Below, in pieces: positions 815 to 17,103 of a DNA stretch of 23,767 nucleotides. Source of the stretch: a virus. The notes under the pieces are model-generated. The model ran no database searches. It was not told where the DNA came from and saw only the letters and a list, made by a program, of their open reading frames with translations. Where the stretch lies: positions 1 to 23,767 of the IMG/VR virus record IMGVR_UViG_3300007523_000090; one strand, written 5' to 3'. The position numbers and the translations under genes are program-made. Within the stretch, counting starts at the first letter, position 1; each line of letters begins with the position of its first letter.

Positions 815-2593
815 ATGGCAATCGCCGATCGTTTACGGGACACCGCAGCCCGCGTCGGCGGTGTCCTTGGGTCCGTCGTCAAGGAGGGGGTCACGGCGTT
901 TTCAAACGCCCGCGCCCCCGCACCCCTGCCGATGCACCCCGCGTCAAAAAGCATTGACCAGCACCTAAGAGAGGTTGAGGGGATGCCCCTTGACCTGCTG
1001 ACCAAGGGCAAAAAGGGCGAGGGAACCCCGCGCGGAGCGGAGTTCAACCCGCTTGAGGCTTACGGCCGGGTCACCTCCGACGCGGCGATGTCGGACCTCC
1101 ACCCCGGCACTTGGGATATGTCGTTCCACACGTTGGATCGACTCTCCCGGCTGTCGATCCCGGCGATCGTGATCAACCACCAGATTGACGAGATCGCGGA
1201 GTTTTGTACTCCACAGACCAACCCTTACACGTTCGGGTTCCGCGTCACGCTTGACGACGACGAAAAAGAGCCAACCGCCAAGCAAAAAAAGCGGATGGAG
1301 GAAATAACCAAGGTCCTTAACAACCCGGCCGGCCAGCATCAGGACGGCGGGCTTGAGGGCTTTACCCGGCGCGTGATGCGGGACTCGCTCAGGTATGACG
1401 CTTGTGCCGTCGAGGTGCTCAAAGACCGGTCGGGCGCGCCGATCGGGATGGTCGCGTACGACGCGAAGACGATCCGCCGCCGCGAACCGACCAACGACTA
1501 CATGTCGACCGGCCGCTGGGGCGAAGACTCGGGCTATGTCCAATGGATCGATCAACGCGTCTGGGCCGACTGGGACGGCGACGAGTTTTTATACGGCGTG
1601 CGCCGACCCCGCACCGACAACGACGCTTTCAACTACGGCTTCCCCGAGATGGAAGAGATTCAAACGGTGCTCACGTCCTTCGCCCGCAGCGAGAACTACA
1701 ACACCGTGAACTTCACGTCTGGGATCCACGCGTCGACGATCCTCGGCATCGTGTCTTCGATGGACACGGAGGCGTTTACCGCCTACCGCCGGATGTTTGA
1801 GGCCAACTTCTCGGCGGCGGCACAAAAGCGGCGTCTCCCGATGATCCAGCTCGACCCCGAGTTGAAAGAGGACCTGAAAGCGGTCAACCTCGGTCACAGC
1901 AACCGGGACATGGAGTACTCGAACTGGATGAACTATCAGATCAAACTGATCTGCGCGATCTACGGCGTTGACCCCGCCGCGGCCGTCGGGATGGTCTTCG
2001 GCAACGAGGGGCAATCCTCTTCGCTCGGCGGGACCGGGCCGGGCGACCGATACTTGCAATCGAAAGCACACGGGATCCGGACCAAGCTTCGTTGGTACAG
2101 CGCCTATCTCACGCGGTTCGTCAAGCTGTTCGACCCGGAGATGAAATGCACCTTCGGCGGCTTTGACTCTATATCTGAGCAAGACAAGCTCGACATGGAC
2201 ATCAAGCAACTAAACGGCTTCGTGACCGTCAACGAGATTCGCACCCGTTACGACCTCCCGGCTATCGAGGGCGCTGCGGGTGACGTAATCGCCAATCCCT
2301 ATGTCTCGCAAGTCCAGCAAATGGAAGCATCTATGGCGCAAGGCGGCGACGACGGTATGGGCGGCGGGGGTGGCATGGGCGACGACGAGCTGCAAGCGTC
2401 TTTCTCGCGGGACCTCTACCTCCCGCGCGGCGGCAACATTGACTCCATCACCAAAGCGGTCGCGCGGCGGTATGAGGAAGGGTTTAGGCGGGGCCTCGTC
2501 ACCCGGCCGGCCGATTGGAAGCCGGGCAAGCCGCTTGGTATCGTTCATCGGGGCCGTAACCGCGAGCCCGTGCTCGTCTCAATCCGGGTTTAA
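815..2593 (+). CDS. Phage portal protein
   Basis: The 592-residue product has the expected size of a portal subunit, the dodecameric ring at the capsid vertex through which DNA is packaged and to which the tail attaches. The segment around residues 105-130, with the pattern SIPAIVINHQIDEIAEF, resembles the start of the portal clip/wing core where many portals have 'I.a.i..r.d.v..f'. A long alpha/beta core follows, then a Gly/Asp/Met-rich linker (about residues 507-528) and a basic tail. ATG at 815 follows an AGGGGG Shine-Dalgarno site at 805-810. Position before a MuF-type protein, protease and capsid gene supports the call. The exact portal subfamily is not clear to me. Confidence 0.85.
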   Translation: MAIADRLRDTAARVGGVLGSVVKEGVTAFSNARAPAPLPMHPASKSIDQHLREVEGMPLDLLTKGKKGEGTPRGAEFNPLEAYGRVTSDAAMSDLHPGTWDMSFHTLDRLSRLSIPAIVINHQIDEIAEFCTPQTNPYTFGFRVTLDDDEKEPTAKQKKRMEEITKVLNNPAGQHQDGGLEGFTRRVMRDSLRYDACAVEVLKDRSGAPIGMVAYDAKTIRRREPTNDYMSTGRWGEDSGYVQWIDQRVWADWDGDEFLYGVRRPRTDNDAFNYGFPEMEEIQTVLTSFARSENYNTVNFTSGIHASTILGIVSSMDTEAFTAYRRMFEANFSAAAQKRRLPMIQLDPELKEDLKAVNLGHSNRDMEYSNWMNYQIKLICAIYGVDPAAAVGMVFGNEGQSSSLGGTGPGDRYLQSKAHGIRTKLRWYSAYLTRFVKLFDPEMKCTFGGFDSISEQDKLDMDIKQLNGFVTVNEIRTRYDLPAIEGAAGDVIANPYVSQVQQMEASMAQGGDDGMGGGGGMGDDELQASFSRDLYLPRGGNIDSITKAVARRYEEGFRRGLVTRPADWKPGKPLGIVHRGRNREPVLVSIRV

Positions 2594-2602: not shown

Positions 2603-2854
2603 GTGCAAATCCAAATAGTCGAAGACACGCCCGGGGAGATTCAGGCGCTGACCGCTCAAGAGATAGTCGCCAAGCTCTACATTGGGATGACCCGCGCGAG
2701 CGAGCAGCTATTAAAGGGGCACGCGGAGCGGGGCGGCGAGATTGACGCGCTCGAAACGTTGCGCGTGGACTTGCACAAAGGGTTCGAGGCCCGCCTTGAA
2801 GCAATCCGAGCCGGGTTGATCAAGGACTTGGGCGACGGCGCAGAGGGGGCGTAA
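2603..2854 (+). CDS. Small helical protein between portal and kinase
   Basis: This 83-residue protein starts with GTG at 2603, supported by AAGGGGG just upstream (2592-2598), and its TAA stop overlaps the ATG of the next gene (TAATG), so the two are translationally coupled. The sequence is dominated by amphipathic helix with heptad-like spacing and no cysteines. I do not recognise a family. Because it is coupled to the zeta-toxin-like kinase gene it could be that kinase's partner, for example an antitoxin-like or chaperone role. It could equally be a small head protein. Only position and coupling support any role. Confidence 0.65.
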   Translation: MQIQIVEDTPGEIQALTAQEIVAKLYIGMTRASEQLLKGHAERGGEIDALETLRVDLHKGFEARLEAIRAGLIKDLGDGAEGA

Positions 2855-3834
2855 TGTACGCGCTCGCGACTCTTGCCGGTTGGGACCACGTCCAAAAAGC
2901 CAAGTATCTCTCGAAAAAGTGGGCGAACGGCTCTTGGCAGTACACTTACGCCAAGCCGGCCGCGGGGGATAAGCCGAAGGCCAAGCCCTCGGCAGTCCCG
3001 GCGAAACCTAAGAGCTACACGCTGACCCCCGGCGGACTTCCCGGCGGCGAGACGTGGAAGCATCACTTCTCGGGACACCCCGACGGCGGCGGACAGCCGA
3101 CAAAAGAGCGGGCGGCTGTCCACGCCGAGATCGTCAAGCGGGCGCTAGAAGCGAGCCCGGGGGAAGCAAAGGGCAAGCCCACGCTCTACCTTATGCAAGG
3201 CGGCTCGGGTGCGGGTAAAAGTTCGATCCTTCGGCGCATGGGTCTCGGTGACGGCGCCGTGATCGTCAACAACGACGACGTCAAGGTGGAACTGCCGGAG
3301 TTCAAAAAGTATCTCGACGACCCCGCGGGCAAGGTCCCTGCAAACGCCTCGTCTGACGTCCACGGCGAAAGTTCGTTTGTGATGAAACAGATCCGGGAGG
3401 CGGCTATTAAGGGCCGGCGAGATATCATTTACGACTCGAACCTAAACAACGTCGGGATCGCGCGGAACATGATCGACCGGTTCAAAAAGTTGGGATACAA
3501 CATACACCTAATCACGGTCCACGCGGATTCTAAAACGGCGCTTCAACGGGTCGCTGACCGTCACGTCAAGACCGGCCGAGGCGTGCCAGAGTGGGCTGTC
3601 CAGTCGTCGTTGCGGGACATGCCGGGGGCGTTCCGGGGTATCAAAGACCTCGTCGACAACTATGATCTTTATACGACGACGGCAGACGAGAAGTCGGTCA
3701 CCGACCCGATGACGGGCAAGACAGACGTCACGACCGTTCGCCATATCGCGGCCGCTCGCACCGACGCCGGAACGGGCCACCGGAAAGAGGACATCTTACA
3801 CCCGGCGCTTAACGCTAGGATCGTGGGCGCGTAA
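2854..3834 (+). CDS. Zeta-toxin-like P-loop kinase with short aromatic N-terminal tag
   Basis: The 326-residue product has three parts. Residues 1-35 include a K-rich segment followed by G-W-Y-Y (KKWANGSWQYTYAKP), similar to the aromatic tag of the proteins at 9227, 11017 and 11676. Residues about 36-105 are a Lys/Pro/Gly-rich linker. Residues about 108-310 are a zeta-toxin/PezT-type kinase domain: Walker A GGSGAGKS at 116-123, the NNDD motif at 139-142 (expected catalytic Asp region), VHGESS at 169-174, and the TGRGVP segment at 240-245 that carries a conserved Arg in the family. Known zeta toxins phosphorylate UDP-N-acetylglucosamine and block cell-wall synthesis; whether this one does is inferred. 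It is coupled by TAATG overlaps to both neighbours, which places it firmly in the head operon. No recognisable epsilon antitoxin is present. Confidence 0.82.
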   Translation: MYALATLAGWDHVQKAKYLSKKWANGSWQYTYAKPAAGDKPKAKPSAVPAKPKSYTLTPGGLPGGETWKHHFSGHPDGGGQPTKERAAVHAEIVKRALEASPGEAKGKPTLYLMQGGSGAGKSSILRRMGLGDGAVIVNNDDVKVELPEFKKYLDDPAGKVPANASSDVHGESSFVMKQIREAAIKGRRDIIYDSNLNNVGIARNMIDRFKKLGYNIHLITVHADSKTALQRVADRHVKTGRGVPEWAVQSSLRDMPGAFRGIKDLVDNYDLYTTTADEKSVTDPMTGKTDVTTVRHIAAARTDAGTGHRKEDILHPALNARIVGA

Positions 3835-4544
3835 TGTTTGATCTCGACCTCGCGGCGGACCAAGTCGCGGCCCACCTACGGGAAAACTACCTCCACGGCG
3901 TAGTCAGCGGGCTGGCCGAGTGGAACGTGAGCCCGGCCGAGTTACCAACGTTGCTCGGCCTCATGTATGCCGATGGGATCGGCTCGCCCCGCTGGACTCT
4001 CGCGCGGTGGGTCCGCCGTCTCGCCGATTGGATCGAAGACCGGGCCGGGTTGGAAAAAGCCGTCAAGATAACCCCCGGCGTGACGGCGTCGAAGGCATTT
4101 CCGAACTGGCTCAAGCCGCCCGAGTTGGAGGCGTGGACTTTCGCGCGCGAGCGGGCTGGTCTTCGTATCGAAGGGCTCGCGGACTCAATGCGAGCCCGGT
4201 TGCGGTCTGTGATGGCGGACGCGATCTCGGCAAACCGGCCGCGGGCCGAGACGGTTAAAATCGTCACAGAGCGGATGGAGAAAGCGTTTATCGGGGCCGG
4301 CAAAGACTGGGAACGAATCGCCGTCACCGAGTTGGCGGCGGCGTTCAACGAGGGGGTCGTCACGGCCTCGGCTCAAAAGGGCGTCAAGCTGTACAGGGTC
4401 CGGACGAATACCGACGCGTGCCATGTTTGCAAAGACGTTTATGACGGCAAGACTTTTACACCGGCGGAGCTGATCAAAGTCATGCCCCCGATACTACACC
4501 CCCGGTGCAGGTGCGTCGTGATTCCGCAAAACCTGAAAAAGTAG
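3834..4544 (+). CDS. Minor head protein, phage Mu F / SPP1 gp7 family
   Basis: The 236-residue product ends in the signature MuF C-terminal region: DACHVC at 195-199 followed by PILHPRCRC at 219-227. Cys196, Cys199, His222, Cys225 and Cys227 form the likely metal-binding cluster. Proteins of this family sit inside the head near the portal and help head assembly or DNA delivery. The N-terminal 180 residues are helical and basic. ATG at 3834 shares its A with the preceding gene's stop. The protein ends just after the MuF motif, so it does not carry the C-terminal toxin domain seen on some MuF proteins. The toxin-like domain is instead in the separate, coupled upstream gene. Confidence 0.88.
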   Translation: MFDLDLAADQVAAHLRENYLHGVVSGLAEWNVSPAELPTLLGLMYADGIGSPRWTLARWVRRLADWIEDRAGLEKAVKITPGVTASKAFPNWLKPPELEAWTFARERAGLRIEGLADSMRARLRSVMADAISANRPRAETVKIVTERMEKAFIGAGKDWERIAVTELAAAFNEGVVTASAQKGVKLYRVRTNTDACHVCKDVYDGKTFTPAELIKVMPPILHPRCRCVVIPQNLKK

Positions 4545-4602: not shown

Positions 4603-5406
4603 ATGCTGACGCACGACACCATTTCAAGTTTTACACCCGGTCTGGCACCGCTCATGAAGGGCGGGCAGATTGAGCGCGGGCTTATCCGGGGAATCGCGAC
4701 GTCGGAACGCGTCGACTTGCAGGGCGAGATCCTCAAGCGCGACGGCGCGAATACACTGCCGTTTCTTGGCGATCTGGCCAAGGGCGGAGACGAGGCCAAC
4801 ACGGGCGCAATCACGCTTGAGCACCCGGCCGGGGTTTTCAATCCGATCGGCGAGCCGGTGGAGTTGGAAAAGGGCGTAAGCCCAGCCGGCGACAAGTGTT
4901 ATTTCATGGTTGCGAAGCTTTGGGTTGACGAGGACGATCTCGCGCTTAAAACGTGGGAAAAAGTCCTTGCTATTCAAAAAGCCTCAAAGCGGGTCCGCCT
5001 CGGATTCTCGGTCGAGGGGCGTGCCGACAAGCGCAACACGACCAACCGCAAAATCATCGACGAGTGGACGTGGGTAAACACGGTCGTCACGGGCGCCCCA
5101 CGCAATCGTGACGCGTTTTTCGACCCGATCCTCGCGTCACTCAACGCGTCGCCCGCTGGCCGGATGGCACTGGCCAAGGCCATGAGCGAAATGCAGCTTC
5201 CGGTCCCGGTCGACATTTCACCCTCTCTCGGGCCGGGTCAAGGTGACGTCAACGGCGTCCCCGTCGGCAAAGCGCTTGAGCTGGGCTATCTGTGCGAAAA
5301 GTTGGGCCTAAGCGAGCTAGACCTCACGGTGGGGTCGGCACTCAAGGGCTCCGCCTCATGGGCGGAAGTGCTCCGCAACATCCTGCTCCGCGTCGCGGGC
5401 AAATAA
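4603..5406 (+). CDS. Capsid maturation (prohead) serine protease
   Basis: The 267-residue product shows the pattern of phage prohead proteases, which cut scaffold and capsid N-termini during head maturation. The N-terminal IATSERVDLQGEIL (31-44) matches the family's 'vDlqGE' strand. His74 in LEHP is the candidate catalytic His, and Ser136 in GFSVEG the candidate nucleophile. The family resemblance is to XkdF/HK97-type (herpesvirus-assemblin-like) proteases. The C-terminal part (about 170-267) lies outside the protease core and may be scaffold-like. The position immediately before a scaffold-like gene and the major capsid gene supports this. The start is the first ATG after the gap. The Shine-Dalgarno site is weak, so start confidence is moderate. 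Confidence 0.85.
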   Translation: MLTHDTISSFTPGLAPLMKGGQIERGLIRGIATSERVDLQGEILKRDGANTLPFLGDLAKGGDEANTGAITLEHPAGVFNPIGEPVELEKGVSPAGDKCYFMVAKLWVDEDDLALKTWEKVLAIQKASKRVRLGFSVEGRADKRNTTNRKIIDEWTWVNTVVTGAPRNRDAFFDPILASLNASPAGRMALAKAMSEMQLPVPVDISPSLGPGQGDVNGVPVGKALELGYLCEKLGLSELDLTVGSALKGSASWAEVLRNILLRVAGK

Positions 5407-6119: not shown

Positions 6120-6178
6120 TCCGCCGCCGCGCAACCTGAAACGAAACCGCCGTGACCCGGCATCAAGGAGAAGAACAT

Positions 6179-7609
6179 ATGTCTAGAATCTCACTGCATA
6201 TGGCGAACGGTGGCACACAGCGTTCGTCGAAGGTCGACCAAGTCCTTAACGAGTACGAGGGGACCTCCATCGAGAAGGCCGAGGGCCTCGCGTATTCGCC
6301 GGACCAGAACTTTTCGGGCGCTCCGAGCCTCTCGCCTCTGACGACCCAATCGATTCAGGGAACGCTCGTCGATGAGACTTTCAAGAGCCGCGCCCTCTGG
6401 TTGTGGCCTCGTCTGAACAAGACCAAGATGAACAACAACCTGAGCCATGAGGCAACGGTTGTGAAGTCGCTCGGTTCGCCGGTGGACCCGTTCTTTTCCG
6501 AGGGCGGCGTTAACGCCTTCTCCGAGGCCGAGTTCGACCGCATCACGACCCGCGCGAAGTTCATTTCGGAGAATATCGAGGTTCCCGACACCGCGGCGAT
6601 CATCCGTGGCGGTCTCGACGGCAATAACAGCGCGCTGGAGACTCGCACCCGGCTCGGCATCAAGAACATGCTGGGCTTCATGGAGCGTTGGCTTATCGAG
6701 GGCGATAGTGACGTCTCGACGTTGCAGATCGACGGCTTCCGCAAGGGCGTTCTGGCGCGCGGCGTCGTCGTCGACCTCAAGGGCCGCGCGCCCAACTCGG
6801 AGGACATCGAGAACGTCGTCGGCGAGCTTCAGGCGGACGGCCGCCACGCGATGGATCTGGAAGCCTTCACCGACCCCCGCGTTAAGCGCGTGCTCACGAC
6901 CCTCGACGCGGCCTCTGGCCGTTATCCGAAGGATCGGGGTGGCGTCGTGTCGCGTATCGGCGGACCCTCGGACGTCATTTTGACGACCGAGACCGGCGAG
7001 GCCCCCGTCTATTCGATGCAGCTCATTGGTATGCAGGACAGTTACGCGGCGGCGGGTCTCGGCGACGGCAAGCCCACCGTGGCCGCCTCTGGCGTGGCGG
7101 CTGTTAGTGCTGACGCGCTTTCCCGCTTCTCCGCCACCGACGTCGGCGAGTACGACTACGTAGTCGTGCCCGTAGGCGACAAGGGCGTTGGCGCCCCGAT
7201 CGCATACTCGGCCGTGACGATCGGCTCGGGCGAGAAAGCGGTCTTTACGCTCGCCGATGCGGCCGTCTCCGCGACGAAGAACACCACGGGGATGGTGCGC
7301 TACTATCGTCTATATCGAACCGAAGCGGACGGCACGCTTACGGGCTACATCGGGCAGTTCACCCGCGCAGCTTTCGGGGTCAACACGACCATCACGGACC
7401 TAAACGTCCGTCGGCCGTTCAAGCGTCCGATCTTCATCGGGGAGTTCAACACCGACACGGTCGAGTGGTTGCAGGTGCAGGATATGATCCGTCGCCCGCT
7501 CGCCCAGACGCAGACGAGCATCCCGTTCATGCTTCAGGTCTGGGGCAATCTGTTCTTCAAGCAAGCCCAAAAATGGGCCATCATCGACAACTGCGCCATT
7601 AAGGCGTAA
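6179..7609 (+). CDS. Major capsid protein with an inserted beta domain
   Basis: I chose ATG 6179, which follows AAGGAG at 6165-6170. A GTG at 6152 in frame lacks such a site. The 476-residue product occupies the major-capsid slot and has a long N-terminal arm with the segment PLTTQSIQG at 53-61. It then has a helix/strand pattern compatible with the HK97 fold, including a spine-like helix near NMLGFMERWL. Residues about 295-400 look like a separate Ala/Val/Thr-rich beta domain (strands such as YDYVVVPVGD, VFTLADA and YYRLYRTEADG), probably an immunoglobulin- or fibronectin-like surface insertion. The C-terminus resumes the capsid core. A hairpin with a short T-run follows the gene, as is common after highly expressed capsid genes. 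Confidence 0.85.
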   Translation: MSRISLHMANGGTQRSSKVDQVLNEYEGTSIEKAEGLAYSPDQNFSGAPSLSPLTTQSIQGTLVDETFKSRALWLWPRLNKTKMNNNLSHEATVVKSLGSPVDPFFSEGGVNAFSEAEFDRITTRAKFISENIEVPDTAAIIRGGLDGNNSALETRTRLGIKNMLGFMERWLIEGDSDVSTLQIDGFRKGVLARGVVVDLKGRAPNSEDIENVVGELQADGRHAMDLEAFTDPRVKRVLTTLDAASGRYPKDRGGVVSRIGGPSDVILTTETGEAPVYSMQLIGMQDSYAAAGLGDGKPTVAASGVAAVSADALSRFSATDVGEYDYVVVPVGDKGVGAPIAYSAVTIGSGEKAVFTLADAAVSATKNTTGMVRYYRLYRTEADGTLTGYIGQFTRAAFGVNTTITDLNVRRPFKRPIFIGEFNTDTVEWLQVQDMIRRPLAQTQTSIPFMLQVWGNLFFKQAQKWAIIDNCAIKA

Positions 7610-7663: not shown

Positions 7664-7689
7664 ACTGTTGAGAACCAAGGAGAATCGAC

Positions 7690-8166
7690 ATGAGCGTGAT
7701 TAATCGTGACCCCACCGTTCCGTTGACCCCAGAGTCCGCAAGGCACTTCCAAAAGTACGACCCTATCGCGGGTAGCATGGTGCTGTTCGAGCGCGTGCAG
7801 CTAAGCGAGGAGGTGCGTGTAATGTCCCAGCGGGTCGTCCTGCCGCTCGGCCCGGACGCGGCCGCCGACCGCACGACTTTCTGGGTCTCGCCGGCTCTCC
7901 CGATTACTGTGACGGGCTTTCAGGTCGTCGCAGAGACTGCCATCACCGGGACGGGGGCGGTCGTCGACCTAGAGCTTATCGCGGGGGCCGTGGCCGTCGC
8001 GAACACGGCCGAACTGGTCGGCGCGGCCATTGCAGACGCCTTGTTCGCCGGCACCGTCGTCGCGGGCGCTATCCCCGCGGGATCCTTGCTCAAAGCCACG
8101 GTTACGACCGACACGGCGGCCGGCGGTCTCGGTCTCTGTGCGGTCCTGACCTACGTCTTCGCGTAA
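7690..8166 (+). CDS. Small beta-rich structural protein, possibly capsid decoration
   Basis: The 158-residue product begins with ATG 7690 after AAGGAG at 7677-7682. Apart from a polar N-terminal 60 residues it consists of alternating Val/Ala/Thr/Gly-rich strands, a composition typical of small phage beta-sandwich virion proteins. It follows the capsid gene and precedes a neck-like gene, the usual place for a head decoration or stabilising protein. I do not recognise a named family. The hydrophobic stretches are too interspersed with Thr/Gly and too strand-like to call membrane helices. Confidence 0.55.
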   Translation: MSVINRDPTVPLTPESARHFQKYDPIAGSMVLFERVQLSEEVRVMSQRVVLPLGPDAAADRTTFWVSPALPITVTGFQVVAETAITGTGAVVDLELIAGAVAVANTAELVGAAIADALFAGTVVAGAIPAGSLLKATVTTDTAAGGLGLCAVLTYVFA

Positions 8167-8186
8167 ACCTCAAGAGGGGCCGACCC

Positions 8187-9152
8187 ATGAGCCTTTTAGA
8201 CCTCGCGCTTACGAAGGAATGGCTGGCCAACCGATGGTTGGTCGGCCTTAACTTGACAGACCCCGCAACGGGTTTGCCGTACCCGGACGCCCACTATCAG
8301 CAGGCGATCCTACAGGCGCGCGATATGCTGGCTTATGAGTTCGACCTCGCCCTTGAGCCGACCTCCGACGTTCAGCCGGTGGACGTCACGCAATGGAGCG
8401 AGTCGACCGACTTTCTCATGACCATGCCAAAACGACCGATCATTTCAGTTGAAAAGATCTCGTTTTGGGCTGGGAACAACGAAGTTTGGACCGTGCCGCC
8501 CGAGTGGATTATCCGGCCCTCCGACAAGTTCGGCCAGCTCCAGTTGAAGCCCGACGGCATCACGCACGGCGCTTACACAACCCGATTCCCGAACACGTTT
8601 CAAGGGAACCACGCCTATAAGGCATCACAGATTCGGGTCGCCTACACGGCCGGTTATCCTGAGACTGATGTCGGCCAGTCGTACGGCCGCCGGAATAGCG
8701 ACCGGGTTATCGGGGTCGGCACTGCTTTTAAGACCACAGTCAAGTTGAACGACTTCATCGGCTATGACGGCGCCGAGGCCCGGGTTGTGGCGCGTATCGT
8801 CTCGGACACCGAGCTGATCGTTGATCGGCCGTGGGATTACGCTAACGGCGCAGCCGGTGACCCGCCCGACACGCTGACGACCTTGACAGTCCGGATGCCG
8901 GCCATCTTCGGCGAGTTCATCGGCGCGCTCGCGGCGGGCTCCATCCTCATAACTGCGGGCGACCTTGTGATCGGCGCGGGTATCGCGTCCATGAGCCGCT
9001 CGATTGACGGGCTGAGCCAGTCGATCAACACGACAAGCTCGGCGGAAAACAGCGCCTACTCGGCGCGCATCAAGTCGCTGCAAGAGGTCGTCAAGGACGT
9101 GCGGGTGCGGGTCAAGCGCCTATTCCGACCGATTCTCGGATTCGTCATTTAG
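8187..9152 (+). CDS. Putative head-tail adaptor (neck) protein
   Basis: The 321-residue product starts at ATG 8187 after AGAGGGG. The N-terminal 75 residues are helical and acidic, as in head-tail adaptor proteins that dock under the portal. Residues about 170-220 hold a compact beta module (VIGVGTAFKTT...DFIGYDG...VSDTELIVDRPW) of a type often seen inserted in phage virion proteins. Around residues 245-275 is a Gly/Ala/Ile-rich segment, and the C-terminus is basic. Placement two genes after the capsid fits an adaptor or completion role, but the assignment is by order and general form rather than a diagnostic motif. Its TAG stop (9150-9152) abuts the -35 box of the next promoter. Confidence 0.5.
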   Translation: MSLLDLALTKEWLANRWLVGLNLTDPATGLPYPDAHYQQAILQARDMLAYEFDLALEPTSDVQPVDVTQWSESTDFLMTMPKRPIISVEKISFWAGNNEVWTVPPEWIIRPSDKFGQLQLKPDGITHGAYTTRFPNTFQGNHAYKASQIRVAYTAGYPETDVGQSYGRRNSDRVIGVGTAFKTTVKLNDFIGYDGAEARVVARIVSDTELIVDRPWDYANGAAGDPPDTLTTLTVRMPAIFGEFIGALAAGSILITAGDLVIGAGIASMSRSIDGLSQSINTTSSAENSAYSARIKSLQEVVKDVRVRVKRLFRPILGFVI

Positions 9153-9180
9153 TTGACACCCTAAACGTTTAGGGTATAAT
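9153..9180 (+). promoter_or_regulatory. Strong sigma70-type promoter with palindromic operator in spacer
   Basis: TTGACA (9153-9158) and TATAAT (9175-9180) are both perfect consensus boxes, separated by exactly 16 bp. The whole spacer (9159-9174) is the perfect palindrome CCCTAAACGTTTAGGG. A dimeric regulator bound there would cover the RNA polymerase site, so I infer repression. The expected transcript starts near 9187 and opens with the small hairpin GCGGG/CCCGC (9189-9193 with 9197-9201), which may protect the 5' end. The same palindrome is the spacer of the leftward promoter at 19093-19120. The promoter would drive the tagged gene at 9227 independently of the late operon. Confidence 0.88.
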
Positions 9181-9226
9181 CACATCAAGCGGGAAGCCCG
9201 CCAGACCACAAAACCCGGAGAGCGAA

Positions 9227-10078
9227 ATGGCGAATGAAATCAAAGAGCTGAGCGACTGGGCCGACAAGGCCCTTACCAAGGGCGACGGCCCACCCCCCGG
9301 TTACACGGCGATCCCCGGAGGCAAAAAGGGCGGCTATCGCAAGCCCAAGGCGGGCGGTGGTTGGAGCTACGTTTACACGCAGGGCAGCGCAGGCAAGAGC
9401 AAGCCGGAGCCGGAGCATGATGACGGCGGGTATTCGCGGGCGCCTCTCAACGACCGGGAGTTTACTAATATTCTAAACAGCCCCGACCAGAACTCACGGC
9501 ACCTCATGGGCCTTGCGGACGCAATCTGTGAGGACCACGAAAGGGTTCGCGAGGCCATTCAGACGGTCATCAAAAAGCGCGACTTCACGGGGCTCGCAGA
9601 TCTCGGTCGAAAAGGACTCGCCGAGGCGCCCTACCTAGACCGCCCCGTCTGGGACCGGCTTGTGCGCATCGCGGACAAGGCCGCCGAGCACGCGCGCAGC
9701 GAAAAAAAGACGGCAGCCGCGGCAAAGCGCGAAGATGCCGGCAAGAGCAAGCCGGAGCCGGAGCATGAGGACGAGGGGTCTTCGCGGGAACCCATCAGCG
9801 CCAAAGCATTTTCCGACATGATGAGCGATCCCGACTGGACTACGGGCCAGCTTATGGATTTTGCGGGTATCACCGGCTTGAATCACGAGGATATTCTGGA
9901 CGCTATCAGGGTGGTTGTCCGCAAACACAACTACGCGGGGCTCGAAACCCTCGCCCGCAAGTCACTTGAGTCAGCTTCCACTCTAGACCGTCCCGTTTGG
10001 GCGCGTCTCGCCCGCATCGCGTCCAAGGCTGTCGAGATAGAAGCGGCGGAGAAGGCGGCGACTGACAAGGCGGACTAG
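9227..10078 (+). CDS. Tagged accessory protein with two ~95-residue repeats
   Basis: The 283-residue product starts at ATG 9227 after CGGAGAG. Residues 1-60 are a tag module shared with the proteins at 11017 and 11676: helix LSDWADKAL, then PPGYTAIPGGK, GGYRKPK and GGGWSYVYTQG. Two copies of a helical unit follow (about residues 65-160 and 173-270), each with the pattern R-P---F--(I/M)---D, a central D-I-(T)VV/I-K--(D/Y)-(T/A)GL--L-RK-L and DRPVW-RL-RIA-KA. They are separated by a basic/Ala linker EKKTAAAAKREDA. I do not recognise the repeat fold. It is the first gene after its own regulated promoter, so it acts as a moron-like insertion between neck genes. Virion cargo or an early host-directed protein are possible roles. 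Confidence 0.75.
   Translation: MANEIKELSDWADKALTKGDGPPPGYTAIPGGKKGGYRKPKAGGGWSYVYTQGSAGKSKPEPEHDDGGYSRAPLNDREFTNILNSPDQNSRHLMGLADAICEDHERVREAIQTVIKKRDFTGLADLGRKGLAEAPYLDRPVWDRLVRIADKAAEHARSEKKTAAAAKREDAGKSKPEPEHEDEGSSREPISAKAFSDMMSDPDWTTGQLMDFAGITGLNHEDILDAIRVVVRKHNYAGLETLARKSLESASTLDRPVWARLARIASKAVEIEAAEKAATDKAD
9299..9381 (+). repeat. 83-bp tag-coding repeat, copy 1
   Basis: This segment encodes the GYTAIPGG...VYTQ part of the tag. It matches 11089-11171 at 82 of 83 bases (the one difference is C at 9340 against T at 11130). Such identity at synonymous positions, while flanking sequence diverges completely, indicates recent duplication or gene conversion. Confidence 0.92.
9392..9420 (+). 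repeat. 29-bp exact internal repeat, copy 1 (copy 2 at 9740-9768)
   Basis: The segment encoding the GKSKPEPEH linker is identical at 9392-9420 and 9740-9768. It marks the left boundary of each of the two protein repeat units in the 9227 gene, consistent with tandem duplication of the domain. Confidence 0.9.
9699..9739 (+). repeat. 41-bp exact linker repeat, copy 1 (copy 2 at 11567-11607)
   Basis: The segment encoding EKKTAAAAKREDA is identical over 41 bases in the 9227 gene and near the 3' end of the 11017 gene. With the 83-bp repeat it brackets unrelated middle sequence, so the two genes share ends but not centres. Confidence 0.92.
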
Positions 10079-10165
10079 GCCGCCGAGAACGCGAGACGCA
10101 CCAGCCAGCCAGCCCGTCATGCCTACGCCCACAAATACCGTGGCGAAGACTAAGGACCAAAAACT

Positions 10166-11014
10166 ATGTTCTACCCGCTTCGCCCCAAATACGTTGCACC
10201 GCAAGCAATGTTCAACCCAGAGATCTTCCGGTCGGACATCGTCAAGTTCGGCGGTGACTGCCCGAACATCCGCTGGGAAAAGGCTTTCCCTTGCCCGTGC
10301 AAGATGGTCGTCACGTTGCGGTCGATTGACGGCGAGATCGGTGGGGAAAGCCGGACGGGTTGCACGCAGTGTCATAACGCGGGGGTTTATTACGTCCGCC
10401 AGCCTGATACCTACGCCATTGTCACGGGCGTCGGGGAAACAAGCAGCTCGTCTGGCAAGACGACGGGTTCGGGTTGGGCGGACGTGCAAGCAACGTTTAC
10501 GTTCCTGCCAGAGAACGCCCCCGCGCATGATGACCGCGTGACCGATCTACGGAGCTGGATCCAAGTTTCCGAGAGGCGCAAGCGCAAACGGGACGGGGAG
10601 AAGTTCCGCTTCCCGCTGGAAGTCCGGGAGATCATCGCGGCCGACTCGGGAAACGACACGGTGCCGGTCTGCTTTCGTCAGACCGTTATCGAGCTGGCGA
10701 CGGCCCTCCCCTCGGGTGCGTTCGCGGCCCGGCTAACGGAAGGCGTCGACTTTGAAGTTCTAGACGGCGAACTGATCTGGGCGCTCGGCGATGCCCTTGA
10801 GACCGCGCCGACCGTCGGGAGTGATTACACGGTCACTTACTGGATTCACCCGAGATACTTGATTCAGAACATACCCTATATTTCACGCCCAAGTGTGACG
10901 TCGACGCCTAAGCAGGTCGGCGGCGTGATGACCCCAGCTTTGACGGATATGCCGGTAAAGGCTATCGGTTATCTTGAGTTCGTCGGCCCCGCCGCGGGAA
11001 CCACCGGAGTTTAA
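10166..11014 (+). CDS. Neck-region structural protein with four-cysteine cluster
   Basis: The 282-residue product starts at ATG 10166 after AAGGACC. Cys-Pro-Cys in FPCPCKM (about 42-48) and GCTQCH (about 65-70) form a C-x-C...C-x2-C set that could bind zinc or form disulfides. The rest is beta-rich with basic segment RRKRKR (about 136-141), and the C-terminus contains the pattern PYISRPSVTSTPKQ. It lies between an adaptor-like gene and tail-completion-like genes, so a head-closure or neck role is plausible from position. I do not recognise a named family. The gene is separated from 9227 by 87 bases in which I see no gene or clear signal. Confidence 0.5.
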   Translation: MFYPLRPKYVAPQAMFNPEIFRSDIVKFGGDCPNIRWEKAFPCPCKMVVTLRSIDGEIGGESRTGCTQCHNAGVYYVRQPDTYAIVTGVGETSSSSGKTTGSGWADVQATFTFLPENAPAHDDRVTDLRSWIQVSERRKRKRDGEKFRFPLEVREIIAADSGNDTVPVCFRQTVIELATALPSGAFAARLTEGVDFEVLDGELIWALGDALETAPTVGSDYTVTYWIHPRYLIQNIPYISRPSVTSTPKQVGGVMTPALTDMPVKAIGYLEFVGPAAGTTGV

Positions 11015-11016
11015 TA

Positions 11017-11664
11017 ATGTCGAATGCATTTACAGAGCTTAGTGACTGGGCTGACGAAGCCCTCGCCAAAGGCGCTAAGCCGCCTTCCGGTTACACGGCG
11101 ATCCCCGGAGGCAAAAAGGGCGGCTATCGTAAGCCCAAGGCGGGCGGTGGTTGGAGCTACGTTTACACGCAAGGATCCGCAAGCCGGAGCAAGAGCACGG
11201 CACTCTCTGGTAAAAGCGCACCCGCTAAAGAGATCCGCTCGGTGGGGGACCTCCGGACGCTGGAAAAGCCCATCACGGTGGAGTCCGTTGGGGACGAAAA
11301 CGTGTATCTCAAGGACGCGGCTGGTGGCAGCCACTTCTTCAAGTATACCGAAAACCAAAACCCATCGAAAGCGACCCCCAAAGAGCTTAGCTCGACGACT
11401 GACGTTGACAAGCTCGTCGGACCTATCACTTTCAACAGCTCAGGCGGCGAGAACTTTTACGTCACAGACGGGGACAGCAACCTTCATTTCGTGAAGGTGG
11501 AAGACAATCAACGCGCCTTCGTAAAGTTGCTCGCGCATCTGATTGCGAGTGACGAAGGCGCCCCCGGCGAAAAAAAGACGGCAGCCGCGGCAAAGCGCGA
11601 AGATGCCCCAAAGGGTCCGAACATCCCCGACATCGTCGGCTATTTCAAACCCCCGACCCGATAA
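11017..11664 (+). CDS. Tagged accessory protein with two short beta repeats
   Basis: The 215-residue product opens with the same tag as the 9227 protein: LSDWADEAL, then PPSGYTAIPGGK, GGYRKPK and GGGWSYVYTQG. Its middle (about 70-165) is unrelated and holds two copies of a roughly 45-residue unit with the pattern (S/T)--(V/D)-(D)L--L--PIT--S-G-EN-Y--D-----HF-K---NQ. Then comes the linker EKKTAAAAKREDA, identical at DNA level to 9227, and a Pro-rich tail (PNIPDIVGYFKPPTR). The ATG at 11017 is 2 bases after the preceding stop. The protein looks like the same chassis carrying a different payload. Its biochemical role is unknown. Confidence 0.72.
   Translation: MSNAFTELSDWADEALAKGAKPPSGYTAIPGGKKGGYRKPKAGGGWSYVYTQGSASRSKSTALSGKSAPAKEIRSVGDLRTLEKPITVESVGDENVYLKDAAGGSHFFKYTENQNPSKATPKELSSTTDVDKLVGPITFNSSGGENFYVTDGDSNLHFVKVEDNQRAFVKLLAHLIASDEGAPGEKKTAAAAKREDAPKGPNIPDIVGYFKPPTR
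11089..11171 (+). repeat. 83-bp tag-coding repeat, copy 2
   Basis: This is the partner of 9299-9381 with a single mismatch. It lies at the same protein position in the 11017 gene. Sequence similarity stops abruptly at its right edge, where the two proteins' middles differ. Confidence 0.92.
11567..11607 (+). repeat. 41-bp exact linker repeat, copy 2
   Basis: It is identical to 9699-9739 and encodes the same basic/Ala linker. It is the right-hand boundary of the non-homologous payload in the 11017 gene. Confidence 0.92.
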
Positions 11665-11675
11665 GGGCCTAAACC

Positions 11676-13250
11676 ATGTCCTACCTGCAACAAGTATCAG
11701 CGTGGGCTGACCGGATCTTGAAGTCCGTCGGCGTGATTAAGTTCGCGGGCTCGGCTACGTCTGCGTCTGCCCCTAGTGCAGGCGGTGGGGGTGACGGCGG
11801 CGACGGCAAAACCCCGCCCGACGGCTTCTCGCCGATTCCCGGCTCAAAACATAACGGCTACCACAAGCGGGTCGGAAACAAGTGGGTCTCGTGGTACCCC
11901 GGCAAGGGCACCGGGAAACACGCAAAGGAGGACTTGTCGCAAGAAGAGCACCAAAAAGCGTTCGACTCGGTCGGGCCGCGGCACCGTAAGTTGCTCGACG
12001 GGATGCGGAACAACAGCGTCCGGAAGTTCGAGCCCGACGGCAAAAAGAACGCTGTGCAGAAAGAGGGCAAGGCCGAGGCCAAGGTCGAAGTGGTCGGAGC
12101 TGAAAAGAAAGCCTCCGCGGCGAAGGCTGAAAAGAAAGCCCCCGCCGACGAGGCAAAGGCTGAAAAGAAGGCGAAGAAGCCGGCTAAGGCCCACCCGCAT
12201 CAAGCAACAATGGACGCGGTCGCTGAGCACGGACCGGACAGGCCGATCCCGCCGACGGCGACCAACGTAAAAATGCACTATGACCCTAAGCTCAACCCCG
12301 AGGCCGCCCACACGGGCGCGCTTATGTCATGGGTAAACGCAAAAGGCGTAACCGAGAAGTCCTACAGCGCGGAGTTCCAGCGGCGGACCGCGCACGCTAA
12401 GTGGACCCGCCTCGCGACCATGGTCCCGAAGATCGAGCAGGGCACGAAGTCGCTCCGGGCTGCAATGACAACGGGGACCAAGCGCAAGCGGGACGCCGCG
12501 GTCGCACTCGCGCTTATCGAAGAGACCGGCATTCGCCCCGGGAGTCGAGAGGCCGCGGCGCGTGGGGGCACGGCGGACACCTTCGGCGCGACGACGCTCA
12601 AGCCTGAGCACGTCACGTTCGTTGGGGACACGGCGCACCTGACATTTATCGGCAAGGCGTCGAAAAAGAACCATCGCGTCGTGGATGATCCCGAGCTGGT
12701 CGCGGCGCTCAAAGAGCGAGTCGCCAACCCGACGGCGGACGGTTTCCTATTTGCTGCAACCGACGTCGACACACGGGCCGCAATGAAAGAGCATTACGGC
12801 AAGTTCAAAGTCAAAGACCTGCGGACGCTTCAAGGCTCCATGCGAGCGGCTGACTTGCTCGCTAAAGAGCCGCCGATCGCCATCACGGCGAACAAAACGA
12901 AGGACCTCAAAGCGATCCAAGACGTGATCAACCGCGTATCAAAGGGCGTGTCAGAGTATCTCGACAACACGCCGCCCATGGCGCGCGAGTCTTATATCCA
13001 CCCGTCGCTGTTCGTCGAGTGGATGACTCAGAGCGGCATCGGCCCCGAGTACGTCAAGGCGTTGTTCAAGGGCAAAAAGGGCAAGGGGCATCACCCGATG
13101 CGCAAGATGACCCCCGGGGGCGAGGCGCTCCTTAACGCGTCGCTCAAGCGGGCGCAACCGGCCGGCGGAGCAAAGGTAGCCGGGGCGGACGGTGACACGG
13201 ATGACGAGCACGAAAAAGAGACCTATCCTTTGAGCTTCAAGGGGTTTTAG
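11676..13250 (+). CDS. Type IB DNA topoisomerase fused to the N-terminal tag
   Basis: The 524-residue product joins the tag (SAWADRIL at 8-15; PPDGFSPIPGSK, GYHKR, GNKWVSWYPG at about 47-76) to a Lys/Ala-rich linker (about 125-175) and a poxvirus/bacterial-type topoisomerase IB. These enzymes relax supercoils through a 3'-phosphotyrosine intermediate. Active-site residues are in place: Arg287 in TGIRPGS, Lys327 in FIGKASK, Arg383 in KDLRT, Asn431 in DNTPP (the position held by His or Asn in the family) and the nucleophile Tyr440 in RESYIHP. FGATTLKPEHV at 303-313 is also family-typical. The catalytic domain therefore looks intact. ATG 11676 follows AAGGGCC. Its location amid neck genes with a virion-protein tag is unusual; packaging into the virion is inferred. 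Confidence 0.92.
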   Translation: MSYLQQVSAWADRILKSVGVIKFAGSATSASAPSAGGGGDGGDGKTPPDGFSPIPGSKHNGYHKRVGNKWVSWYPGKGTGKHAKEDLSQEEHQKAFDSVGPRHRKLLDGMRNNSVRKFEPDGKKNAVQKEGKAEAKVEVVGAEKKASAAKAEKKAPADEAKAEKKAKKPAKAHPHQATMDAVAEHGPDRPIPPTATNVKMHYDPKLNPEAAHTGALMSWVNAKGVTEKSYSAEFQRRTAHAKWTRLATMVPKIEQGTKSLRAAMTTGTKRKRDAAVALALIEETGIRPGSREAAARGGTADTFGATTLKPEHVTFVGDTAHLTFIGKASKKNHRVVDDPELVAALKERVANPTADGFLFAATDVDTRAAMKEHYGKFKVKDLRTLQGSMRAADLLAKEPPIAITANKTKDLKAIQDVINRVSKGVSEYLDNTPPMARESYIHPSLFVEWMTQSGIGPEYVKALFKGKKGKGHHPMRKMTPGGEALLNASLKRAQPAGGAKVAGADGDTDDEHEKETYPLSFKGF

Positions 13251-13253
13251 CCG

Positions 13254-13922
13254 ATGGCAACTAAAGCGTTTTTCGACAAGATCAAGCGGTGGCACACGAC
13301 TGTCTTGAGCGACCGACGCTTGGCGATCAAGGTCGCGCTGTTCGAGCGGTGGCTTGAGCTGTCCGGCTCGCTGCGTTCGACGCTTCCCGCGTACCAAGAG
13401 GCAATGAACGTTCGGGAAGAGGACGGCGGGAAGACGCTCGTGTTCGCGCTGTCGGCCGAGCCACGTATGGCCCAGCTGGTCGAGTTCGGCGTCCTGCCCT
13501 ATGATATGCGTGAGACGCTGCTCAAAATGAGCACCCGGTCGATCCGCGTCTCAAAAAAGGGGCACCTATTTCTCTACGTCCCGTTCGGGAATACAACGCG
13601 ATTCATTCGGAAACAGGGCGGGTCCGTGGCGGAACGGGCGGCTCGAAATCTGGGCGCTTACAAACCCGGCGGCGGCGCGGACAGACTCCCGGCGGGGATG
13701 TCGGAGAAGCTCGCCCCGTGGCACTCACACGACCCGCTGGCCAGTCTCGTGCGGCACGCGCCGACGGGGAATCAGCGCGGCTCAACATACATGACATGGA
13801 GAACAATCTCACAGAACGGTCGGCCGTGGACGAACCGCGGTATCCAAGCTCGCAACTTTATGCGGCAAGTGCTTGAATACGAAGCTGACGACATCGCAAA
13901 CAAGGTACTCGGGAGAAAATAA
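13254..13922 (+). CDS. Putative tail-completion / neck protein
   Basis: The 222-residue product starts at ATG 13254, three bases after the topoisomerase stop, with AAGGGG at 13239-13244 as the Shine-Dalgarno site. It is basic with mixed helix and strand (for example GHLFLYVPFGNTTRF) and a helical C-terminus ending in NKVLGRK. The position between a neck-like protein and a second completion-like protein just before the sheath is where HK97 gp10-like or tail-completion proteins usually lie. I see no diagnostic motif, so the name rests on synteny. Confidence 0.5.
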   Translation: MATKAFFDKIKRWHTTVLSDRRLAIKVALFERWLELSGSLRSTLPAYQEAMNVREEDGGKTLVFALSAEPRMAQLVEFGVLPYDMRETLLKMSTRSIRVSKKGHLFLYVPFGNTTRFIRKQGGSVAERAARNLGAYKPGGGADRLPAGMSEKLAPWHSHDPLASLVRHAPTGNQRGSTYMTWRTISQNGRPWTNRGIQARNFMRQVLEYEADDIANKVLGRK

Positions 13923-13924
13923 AA

Positions 13925-14044
13925 ATGGCAGAAACGCTTTCACCAACACCTACTACGCCCAAAGGCGGCGGTTCGATGGCCCCCTTGATGACCCAGTCGA
14001 TTCAGGGCAAGGGCAAGACCAAGAAAACCAAACCCAAGAAGTGA
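13925..14044 (+). CDS. 39-residue basic peptide sharing a motif with the capsid protein
   Basis: ATG 13925 follows GGGAG at 13912-13916 and the frame closes with TGA at 14042-14044. The product has a Thr/Pro/Gly-rich N-terminus, the segment PLMTQSIQG at 20-28 and a Lys/Thr-rich C-terminal tail (KTKKTKPKK). The central nonapeptide matches PLTTQSIQG of the capsid protein N-terminal arm at eight of nine residues, and the DNA matches at 22 of 26 bases (13982-14007 against 6335-6360). This suggests a shared binding site or an origin by partial copying. It fills the gap between two tail-completion-like genes exactly, which supports it being real. Function is unknown. Confidence 0.6.
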   Translation: MAETLSPTPTTPKGGGSMAPLMTQSIQGKGKTKKTKPKK

Positions 14045-14050
14045 TCCACT

Positions 14051-14785
14051 ATGGGATTCCTAGACTTACACGTTGCGCACCGTATCGCCACGGGGCTCCG
14101 AATCTTCGCGACCGACGCCGGCAAGTTGTTATTCAACTCGTGCATGGACGGGCTGATCCCGCAGGACGAGATCGACCGTCTTTATGAGGCGCTCTTCCCG
14201 TACGAGCCCGGCGGAGCTGAAAAGGAGGACCGCCCACGGGGGGTGAAGGTGGCGGTCCGCACGAGCTACCGGGGGTTTATTGACGCCCGGCTCGCGCCCC
14301 CGACGGGGACCGGGGACGAGACCGAGGGGACCGCGCACTTCCCGGCCATTGTCGTCGATCTCGCAAGCGAGACGCCGACAAGCTCTTTAGGCGGGCGTGC
14401 TCGCCGGACGAGGTATGATCAAGTCGTGGAGCTTATGATCATCGCCCAGACCAAAGGCGAGGTTCGGGCGTTGCACGTTATCTTACAGGATATGCTGATC
14501 GATAGCGGCCCGCACTTTGCGGCTTTGGGTTACCCGGGCGGAATCCACCCCGGCCCCGCGGGGGATATTCGACCCGCCGACGGGGCGATGGCGGGACTCG
14601 CGCCAAACCTGATAAACATGGTCCAGCGGTATCAGCGGTGGCGGGGCGAGATCGTCCGGGTGACGCCCAACATCTTCACCGACCCGCTGCCAGCTATCAC
14701 AGGTGTGAGCTTGCACCATGTCGACGCCGTCGGCGAAGGTGGCTTGCAGGGGAAGGCGAACCCCGTTATTCCACCAGATATTTGA
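14051..14785 (+). CDS. Putative tail terminator / completion protein
   Basis: The 244-residue product is encoded immediately upstream of the sheath gene, where myophages usually place the tail terminator or neck-sheath connector. It has an N-terminal helical part, a strand-rich centre with FPAIVVDLAS and YDQVVELMIIAQTKGEVRALHVILQDML (the alternating strand/helix pattern of tail-terminator folds), and a Pro-rich C-terminus. The start at ATG 14051 is six bases after the preceding stop; its Shine-Dalgarno site (AAGAAG) is weak. The call is by position and fold pattern only. Confidence 0.5.
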   Translation: MGFLDLHVAHRIATGLRIFATDAGKLLFNSCMDGLIPQDEIDRLYEALFPYEPGGAEKEDRPRGVKVAVRTSYRGFIDARLAPPTGTGDETEGTAHFPAIVVDLASETPTSSLGGRARRTRYDQVVELMIIAQTKGEVRALHVILQDMLIDSGPHFAALGYPGGIHPGPAGDIRPADGAMAGLAPNLINMVQRYQRWRGEIVRVTPNIFTDPLPAITGVSLHHVDAVGEGGLQGKANPVIPPDI

Positions 14786-14829: not shown

Positions 14830-17103
14830 ATGGCATCTTCAGTCACAGTTAACGGGCAAACGACTTCTCTGCCGGGCGTTTACGCCGATCCGACCTACTC
14901 GGCCGCCGCGCGGGCTCTGCCCCGGGCGAAAGTCGTCGCCATCTTTGGCGAGTTCCCCGAGTTTGAAAACGGCGTCCTTGGCCGCTTCACCTCGGCCGGC
15001 GCGCTCGTGGCGGCGGCACCGACCAACACGACGCTCGAACAAGCGGCGGCGATCGCCTTCGGGCCGGGCTCGGATACGGCCGTCGGGTCACCTGCGGCGG
15101 TGCTTGTAGCCTCAACGCTGCCGTCCGTCGCCGCGCTGTCGGAGCTAGCCGACGCATACAGCACACTCGGCGTCTCGCTCGCGTCTAAGCTCTTCGGGCC
15201 GACGGGGAACCAGATTGCGTTCACGTTCGCGGCGAACGCAACCGACACGCTCAAGCGAGACCTCTCGGTGTACAAGCAAGGCGTGAGCGAGCCCTTGACC
15301 AGTCTCGGCTCGGGGCCGGTGATCGAAGTGGGTTACGCCGGCACGTTCGCTGACCAAATAAGCCTTAGCGCGACCGGCCCGATCTACGACCCGGAGCTGG
15401 CGGAAGTCACCGCCGAGGTCCATGTCTCGCTGTCCAAGGCGCTCGACGCGACTGGGGCCGATTACGTTGTCCCGGCCGCCGATCGGGTCGCGAGTAGCGT
15501 GGTGACTTTCACCGCGGATGTCTCCACGACGATTTCGGGTAACACAAACGTCATAATCACAGGCGCGGCTAGCAGCGGAGTGGCGACGACGGAAACCGTC
15601 GTCTTGCTCGCTGGGTTTAGCACCACCATCAGCTCGACCACGGCTTGGAGCCGCGTCGACAACATCTCCGTGGAAGCCGTAGCGGCCGCGGCCGGCAACG
15701 TCAACGTCTGCTGGCAGGTGATCAAAATCGACAAACACACCGCGCGCACGTTGGCACAGGTCGCGGGTATCCTCGGCGACTTGACCAACATCACGGCCGC
15801 GGTCAAGAACGCCCGGGCATCAACGCTGACCCTTGGCGATCTTGACATCCTCCCGTCGTTCAACTTCCACACCATCGCGGCGGTCCTGCGGGCGGATAGC
15901 TCCGAGCTGGTCCGGCAGGTAAACGCGCAAAGTCGTTTCGTGACGGCGACTCGGTCGCTACCGGATGCCGCTTGGGCTCTCGCGCAGGTCGACACGACCG
16001 GCACCGGCACGGGTGTTACGGCCTCGACGGCCTTGGCAATGACCAGCACGGCCGGCCTCGCCGCCGGCTCGGTGATCTTCATCGGCCCTACGGCGGCCTC
16101 GCCGCGGGTGATCGCAGTCGTGGCGGTCGTCGTCAACGCGACAATGCTTACGCTCGAAACGGGCTTGCCCTTTGACTTCAAGGCACTGCCGGTCTTCGCG
16201 TTGACCAACGCGCCCGCGGGTCGGGCGGCGGCCTTCGCGGGCTCGCGGGTACTCGCGGGAGGACTAACCGGGACCACAACGAGCGCGTCGATCTTGCTCG
16301 CCCGAGCGGCGTTGTCGTTTTCGGACGTGTCGGTTATCACCGTGCTATCGTTCGACGACGTGCTAATCCGTGCCGCCTATGATCACGCGGTTAAAATGGC
16401 CGGCGTCGGGGCCAACGAGTGTTGTGTGTGGGCCGCCTTCGCGGCGGGCTCGACCAAGGCAACGATCGACGCCGGGACGATCGCTTACAACTCTCGCCAC
16501 ATCGCGTTCGCGGGGCAGTCCATCCGGGTTATCGACCCCCGCGGAAACCGCCGACTGCTCGACCCCCGCTTTCAGGCGCTTCAGCTCGCGGCGATGCAGG
16601 GCGGGGTCGCGATCGCGGAGCCCATCACAACTAAATACGCCCGGGTTGTCGGGGTCGTCGAAGGCGCCGATTGGGATGGCACGGCCGACCCCTCCGAGAT
16701 GATCCAGCTCGGGTTGACCGTCTACCGTCGGGACACCCGGGGTTATCACGTCGCCCGAGCGGTCACGTCGTATCGCGCAAGCGACGACGTCAACCAGTCG
16801 GAGGTCTCGGCGAACGAGTCGGCGTTCTGGCAGATCCGGGACATGCGGGAAGAGCTGCGGGCCATCATCGGCACAAACAGCTCGGAGGTCCTACCCGAAG
16901 CTCTGGCCGGCAACGTGATTGCGCGCGGCCGGGTGCAGGTGATCGGGAAGCTGATCCGGGCGATCCACGAGGACACGGTCCGAATCGTGCAGAACGGGGA
17001 TACCGGCGTGGTCTTCTATGATTACGAGCCCTCCGTCCCGTATAACTTCCTAATCCTTCAGCCGAATGTTCGGCAAGTAAGCTTCACGTTCAGCGCAAGC
17101 TAA
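14830..17103 (+). CDS. Contractile tail sheath protein
   Basis: I place the start at ATG 14830 after AAAGGGG; the frame is open upstream but overlaps the preceding gene. The 757-residue product begins with the hallmark sheath N-terminus (LPGVYADPTYSA near residue 13). The C-terminal third (about 500-757) holds the conserved core, with ARGRVQVIGKLIRAIHEDTVRI and a strand-rich end that donates to neighbouring subunits. Two Thr/Ala/Val-rich beta segments at about 215-300 and 393-462 look like extra surface domains and explain the large size compared with sheaths of roughly 400-650 residues. The sheath contracts to drive the tube through the cell envelope. The tube gene follows 10 bases later. 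Confidence 0.88.
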   Translation: MASSVTVNGQTTSLPGVYADPTYSAAARALPRAKVVAIFGEFPEFENGVLGRFTSAGALVAAAPTNTTLEQAAAIAFGPGSDTAVGSPAAVLVASTLPSVAALSELADAYSTLGVSLASKLFGPTGNQIAFTFAANATDTLKRDLSVYKQGVSEPLTSLGSGPVIEVGYAGTFADQISLSATGPIYDPELAEVTAEVHVSLSKALDATGADYVVPAADRVASSVVTFTADVSTTISGNTNVIITGAASSGVATTETVVLLAGFSTTISSTTAWSRVDNISVEAVAAAAGNVNVCWQVIKIDKHTARTLAQVAGILGDLTNITAAVKNARASTLTLGDLDILPSFNFHTIAAVLRADSSELVRQVNAQSRFVTATRSLPDAAWALAQVDTTGTGTGVTASTALAMTSTAGLAAGSVIFIGPTAASPRVIAVVAVVVNATMLTLETGLPFDFKALPVFALTNAPAGRAAAFAGSRVLAGGLTGTTTSASILLARAALSFSDVSVITVLSFDDVLIRAAYDHAVKMAGVGANECCVWAAFAAGSTKATIDAGTIAYNSRHIAFAGQSIRVIDPRGNRRLLDPRFQALQLAAMQGGVAIAEPITTKYARVVGVVEGADWDGTADPSEMIQLGLTVYRRDTRGYHVARAVTSYRASDDVNQSEVSANESAFWQIRDMREELRAIIGTNSSEVLPEALAGNVIARGRVQVIGKLIRAIHEDTVRIVQNGDTGVVFYDYEPSVPYNFLILQPNVRQVSFTFSAS

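Follow-up and report, generated by a model that had tools for sequence, protein, structure and literature searches.

The capsid-targeting signal of phage T4 internal proteins is a short N-terminal peptide that the head protease cuts off. As an address, this sequence is able to bring foreign proteins into the head (cited in PMC9024508). In phage P1, DarB and DdrB are head/virion proteins, and the N-terminal ~30 residues of DarB bring its payload, as well as a heterologous reporter, into the head. The gene for DarB adjoins the portal gene, and the authors found no consensus among the Dar N-termini (PMC9024508). Polyvalent proteins are inferred to be packaged and injected with the DNA, and zincins were proposed as their processing enzymes, according to Iyer et al. 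2017 (PMC5512222). In MuF-linked systems, effectors are joined to a carrier from the virion module (Jamet et al. 2017, PMC5576092). Neither injected effectors nor polyvalent proteins are new, and the same holds for short capsid-targeting sequences. Here we describe a short conserved module, called the tag, at the N-terminus of three proteins (T1, T2 and T3) of an uncultured contractile-tailed phage. They are encoded in IMG/VR record IMGVR_UViG_3300007523_000090, a 23,767-bp fragment that was analyzed whole and is called the window. We did not find a conserved label on many unrelated cargoes in the literature searched, whose coverage was partial, and an earlier description is possible.

The initial annotation had noted a common N-terminal layout in the proteins starting at positions 9227, 11017 and 11676. 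The three open reading frames (ORFs) are present as given, and this layout was borne out. It consists of a helix motif (S-WAD--L) and a core of ~31 residues, PPxGFxPIPGSKxGGYRKRxGxxWxYWYP, with profile E-values from 2e-9 to 4e-17. In T3, a Gly/Ser/Ala-rich insert of ~27 aa lies between helix and core. A hidden Markov model (HMM) made from other phages only, without window sequences, recognizes T3 (E = 3.5e-17), T2 (5.6e-11) and T1 (1.8e-9), and has no convincing match in any remaining window protein. The first eleven contigs have 3,463 ORFs, in which true tags are found at E<=2e-10 and the best non-member at 0.084, which leaves a clean gap.

The core consensus is P-P-x-G-[FWY]-x-P-[IV]-P-x-[GS]-K-x-G-G-[YF]-[RH]-[KR]-[KR]-x-G-x-G-[WY]-x-Y-W-Y-P, with a mean net charge of +4.2. 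In the AlphaFold2 model of T2, a helix stands at the N-terminus and the core forms a beta-hairpin (strands 36-40 and 46-50; pLDDT about 75-80), and a model of the T3 core built from 39 rows has two or three strands. The core is predicted to be a short N-terminal PIPG arm followed by a basic/aromatic beta-hairpin, and in this phage subgroup a short amphipathic helix is predicted to precede it. The tag has no match among the known domain families of Pfam, PHROGs or NCBIfam. Its model also has no match in the PDB (Foldseek). Among predicted viral structures, another phage, also uncultured, supplies the best match, which lies in a Zeta-toxin protein (E = 0.007, probability 1.00; 61% identity over 31 residues, 1.0 A).

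T1 and T2 have the tag in common at the DNA level too, as a 178-nt repeat of 84% identity that begins at the start codon. A second repeat downstream of the tag encodes a linker (49 nt, 94%). Apart from this short T1/T2 linker, the payloads of T1, T2, T3 and the kinase at 2854 are unrelated past the tag. Unrelated domains had been claimed initially, and they are evident in T1 as helical repeats and in T3 as a topoisomerase IB. The T1 payload (window positions 9401-10075) is a duplicated helical unit of ~100 aa (local score 234, best shuffle 74) that has no family match. In a Pfam domain scan, no domain was recognised in T1 or T2, and only topoisomerase IB in T3 (Pfam Topoisom_I, 4e-16; PDB 2f4q, 4.6e-12, aligned across the catalytic core). 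Like the 2f4q family, T3 keeps aligned the R, K, R and Y positions that are catalytic in topoisomerase IB, but it adds an N-terminal extension of ~230 aa that includes the tag.

The window's portal, MuF-like, protease, capsid, sheath and tube genes are codirectional (Table 1). As had been proposed, the tagged genes lie inside this virion structural operon, among portal, MuF, protease and capsid genes, both in the window and in its relatives. Tagged ORFs adjoin such genes in the first ten contigs, and homologous portal, capsid or protease genes are present in 24 of 26 further tag contigs, a few of which are near-duplicates. The distance from tag to head landmark has a median of 4.2 kb in the 23 further contigs with a usable landmark. 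A gene-sampling test on four ~100-kb contigs yielded p=1.6e-6 (1.5e-5 for long genes). As an observation, the co-location with head genes is strong. In one contig (IMGVR_UViG_3300037011_000791, 7412-11599; G304), the portal match falls into three pieces in one 1,428-aa frame, suggesting inteins or insertions.

One related contig, G005, has backbone genes colinear with those of the window, and the tagged genes differ between them. In the slot between the homologues of the genes at 8187 and 10166, the window has T1 and G005 has a 778-aa fusion of a tag-topoisomerase unit with a tag-repeat unit. The slot between the 10166 and 13254 homologues is occupied by T2 and the tagged topoisomerase in the window, and by two other tagged proteins in G005. 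Ahead of MuF, where the window has the kinase, G005 encodes a protein of 221 aa whose tag is divergent. Past the portal, G005 encodes a 1,525-aa doubly tagged protein, and the window has none. Payloads swap or change slot between phages, and the tag is retained.

Copies of the tag were collected with degenerate DNA patterns and profile searches; a wide DNA pattern yielded 39 stretches, two of whose contigs do not have the tag. The core occurs at least 72 times in 33 non-redundant uncultured viral contigs. Using T1 and the tag as queries, tblastn gave no significant tag match in cultured-phage records (50,697) or plasmids (72,556), and single-protein locus searches with T3 or the capsid protein found no relatives. 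The tag occurs in one of 294 Planctomycetota genomes, on a contig that matches a listed virus and whose tag-bearing proteins agree with it. It is absent from the bacterial chromosomes tested. It had been stated initially that a virion role would be contradicted if most homologues came from non-phage DNA and lay far from structural genes. We looked for this pattern and did not see it: matches are confined to phage contigs, and the tag is phage-specific and lies beside head genes. A contig binned in a Planctomycetota metagenome-assembled genome (L019 or G010:C436; JALORE010000001.1, 98,765 bp) appears to be the same virus as IMGVR_UViG_3300037461_000409 (98,779 bp). Wherever both copies are complete, their ORF matches have the same lengths, E-values and residue positions, and the host assigned by binning is uncertain.

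The payloads include topoisomerase IB (in three phages), DarB-like N6-methylase with SNF2 helicase, a Strawberry-notch-type helicase, ddrB-ParB and inorganic pyrophosphatase (InPase). Others are GNAT, ART-PolyVal (an ADP-ribosyltransferase), a polyA-polymerase-type nucleotidyltransferase, Dps/ferritin and many unnamed domains. By these domains, the set is the "polyvalent" repertoire of injected proteins, and it includes the DarB and DdrB families, whose P1 members are proven virion proteins (PMC9024508). MuF and the tag are fused in a single ORF in one contig (L116). Topoisomerase IB is tagged in three of four of these phages, whereas that of Bacteroides phage BS162P1 is a bare 254-aa enzyme. 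The tag, or a second hairpin module called HKY that is described below, lies within the first 110 aa in 35 of 61 ORFs with complete starts, compared with 12.8 expected.

Some tagged proteins have further features. A QLxLFG motif (QLSLFG, QLGLFG or QMGLFG) is located 8-27 residues ahead of six tags (ORFs L065, L056 and L061/L062 of G002, G003 and G008). It has 11 occurrences in 164,544 residues, and about 0.1 would be expected near tags. It resembles the bacterial sliding-clamp-binding motif QL[SD]LF. In a tagged giant protein (G010:C436 28929-36713, G003 1-6006), the SNF2 helicase is split by an intein/HINT-like domain. Finally, a tagged 380-aa protein in G005 (L051, 36029-37168) has a HEVIH motif of the zincin metallopeptidase type.

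The kinase at 2854 matches Pfam Zeta_toxin and has the P-loop GGSGAGKSS; among the tag contigs, a Zeta toxin occurs only in the window. The initial annotation had assigned this kinase a looser aromatic stretch. The tag model has no match in the kinase, and we rejected the idea that it bears the same tag; at best it has a looser hairpin. That stretch, KYLSKKWANGSWQYTYAKP, does resemble HKY, a module of the form HKYxxRxP..G..RYRYFY that is common in the same phages. An HKY regular expression has 18 matches in contig ORFs and none in shuffles, and, apart from the window kinase, the matching ORFs all belong to the same head region. The resemblance of KYLSKKWANGSWQYTYAKP is suggestive only, with weak statistics (11 of 5000 shuffles; E=1.9 against a fuller model), and it is possible that this stretch is a functional equivalent of the tag. 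Around the portal, HKY is also found, often N-terminally, on proteins of the SNF2, InPase and ddrB-ParB types (G007 49950-58123, G009 57741-74178, G004 6386-17180). A related hairpin, KYYKREPKAKGGYRYWYT, opens a ParB-type protein of Leptospira phage LE1 (gp26; L083 14932-17511) two genes past the capsid gene (E=6e-5). Of the cultured phages, only LE1 has a hairpin significantly related to these, and it might be a tractable model. Virions of LE3 and LE4 have been examined by mass spectrometry, in work that did not include LE1 (PMC6078989).

The closest described systems resemble this one in part. Polyvalent proteins have ART-PolyVal, InPase, ddrB-ParB, the methylase-helicase dyad, GNAT and a zeta-like kinase in common with the tagged proteins, likewise lie beside virion genes, and have been proposed, as the tagged proteins are here, to be injected along with the DNA. 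However, they were grouped by effector domains, and a shared address module was not found in the parts of PMC5512222 that were searched, whereas here one short module occurs on both single-payload and giant proteins. T1, T2 and T3 are encoded near virion genes, as polyvalent proteins are, but do not have two or more disparate domains; relatives of 3,034 aa (G008) and 1,111 aa (G009) do. The window proteins appear to be single-payload units of the same system as these relatives. Like P1, the tagged set includes DarB-like payloads. Unlike the DarB signal, the tag has a consensus that recurs from payload to payload, and it often lies inside the protein in more than one copy. We rejected the identity of the two, there being no sequence match. 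The MuF-tag fusion recalls MuF-linked effectors, but the window's MuF is a separate gene, and T1, T2, T3 and the kinase have no MuF domain.

We lean toward the view that the tag is a small portable module for virion cargo, with a function like that of the P1 DarB capsid-targeting sequence but no relation to it in sequence. Copied and shuffled at the DNA level, the tag has been joined to unrelated effector enzymes whose genes lie with the head genes. At head assembly, the module would let the prohead take up or retain its payload, with the portal, MuF, neck or inner shell as its putative partner. Topoisomerase IB, the kinase, helicase-methylase, ADP-ribosyltransferase and others would then be carried into the next host along with the DNA and could act ahead of phage gene expression. 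T3 might relieve torsion in newly injected DNA, or otherwise handle it. We count in favor of the cargo role the unrelated payloads, their injected repertoire, the head-gene position, the slot shuffling and the DNA cassette from the start codon. The N-terminal enrichment, the MuF-tag fusion, the tagged Zeta toxin elsewhere, the contrast of tagged topoisomerase IB with the bare enzyme and the absence from tested chromosomes also count for it.

Several results weigh against this view. A rotation test that keeps tag clusters together, on ten long contigs, gives only p=0.09. All tag contigs with head genes belong to one portal/capsid lineage, and the tag's position could therefore partly be inherited synteny. 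Neither the tag model nor the HKY model significantly matches P1 DarB. No copy lies in the first 110 aa in 26 of the 61 tag-bearing ORFs, and proteins of 1,238 to 3,034 aa hold 3-4 copies between domains, which a terminal sorting signal would not need. The initial annotation had proposed that the module docks payloads to the virion. Its modular, phage-specific and N-terminally enriched character, along with the head-operon setting, the repertoire and the fusion to MuF, agrees with that proposal, but the internal and multiple copies are unlike a simple terminal docking tag. A more sweeping version, which we put forward tentatively, is a universal address label: one mini-domain, carried as a DNA cassette, that enables a lineage of phages to load any effector into the head by way of interchangeable operon slots. 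HKY would be a second family of such labels.

It is also conceivable, although unlikely, that the tag is a nucleic-acid-binding hairpin that tethers payloads to DNA, either packaged or incoming, and not to a head protein; the payloads might still be cargo. The basic strand (GGYRKR) opposite the aromatic strand (WxYWYP), together with the high mean charge, fits DNA binding equally well, which is a further point against the virion-cargo module. Many payloads act on DNA, and several copies per protein fit avidity. However, the tag is also found on InPase, GNAT, ART, zincin-like and Zeta-kinase payloads, none of which acts on DNA. Moreover, its strict Gly/Pro/Trp pattern exceeds what charge would need, and no DNA-binding fold in the PDB matches it.

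The multiple copies between domains could also point to an inter-domain element of polyproteins, such as a spacer, an aid to folding or to unfolding for tail passage, or a processing site, with no addressing role. The fusion in G005, a tag-topoisomerase-tag arrangement in another contig (G311) and the tagged zincin-like payload in G005 are consistent with this. We find it rather doubtful, given that the small T1 and T2 proteins bear the tag at their extreme N-terminus, where a spacer is needless, that the tag is enriched N-terminally, and that no common cleavage motif was recognised. Least probable is a reading of the tagged proteins as ordinary structural proteins of the head, neck or tail in one phage lineage, with the tag an inherited structural domain and no cargo address: the single lineage and the absence of a recognised enzyme domain in T1 and T2 would allow it, but many payloads are enzymes, T3 has its catalytic positions intact, and unrelated payloads change slot between phages whose backbone structural genes stay colinear.

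Table 1. Coordinates of genes and repeats in the window
Feature	Position	Strand	Details
Portal protein	815..2593	+	
Zeta-toxin-type kinase	2854..3834	+	Domain 3163-3651; HKY-like stretch KYLSKKWANGSWQYTYAKP about 2896-2958
MuF-like minor head protein	3834..4544	+	
Head maturation protease	4603..5406	+	
Major capsid protein	6152..7609	+	
Conserved structural gene bordering cargo slot A	8187..9152	+	PHROG 772; colinear in G005
T1, tagged	9227..10078	+	283 aa; helix residues 3-18; core tag 9284-9382; two ~100-aa helical repeat units
Virion structural protein separating cargo slots A and B	10166..11014	+	PHROG 1004
T2, tagged	11017..11664	+	215 aa; core tag 11071-11172; payload without recognised fold
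T3, tagged topoisomerase IB	11676..13250	+	524 aa; helix and Gly-rich spacer, then core tag 11805-11909; topoisomerase core 12375-12971
Conserved structural-operon gene at end of cargo slot B	13254..13922	+	PHROG 16819
Tail sheath (contractile tail)	14830..17103	+	
178-nt direct repeat, copy 1 (T1 tag cassette, from start codon)	9226..9403	+	84% identity to 11016-11193
178-nt direct repeat, copy 2 (T2 tag cassette)	11016..11193	+	
49-nt repeat, copy 1	9691..9739	+	Linker EKKTAAAAKREDA common to T1/T2; copy 2 at 11559-11607, 94%

How phages pick the proteins that they pack with their DNA is an open question, and the cargo N-termini of P1 have no common signal (PMC9024508). If the tag is indeed a virion-cargo module, a conserved label would allow virion cargo to be predicted from sequence. 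It would also flag new injected effectors, including T1, T2 and many of the unnamed payloads, and could be adapted as a tag for loading proteins into model phages.

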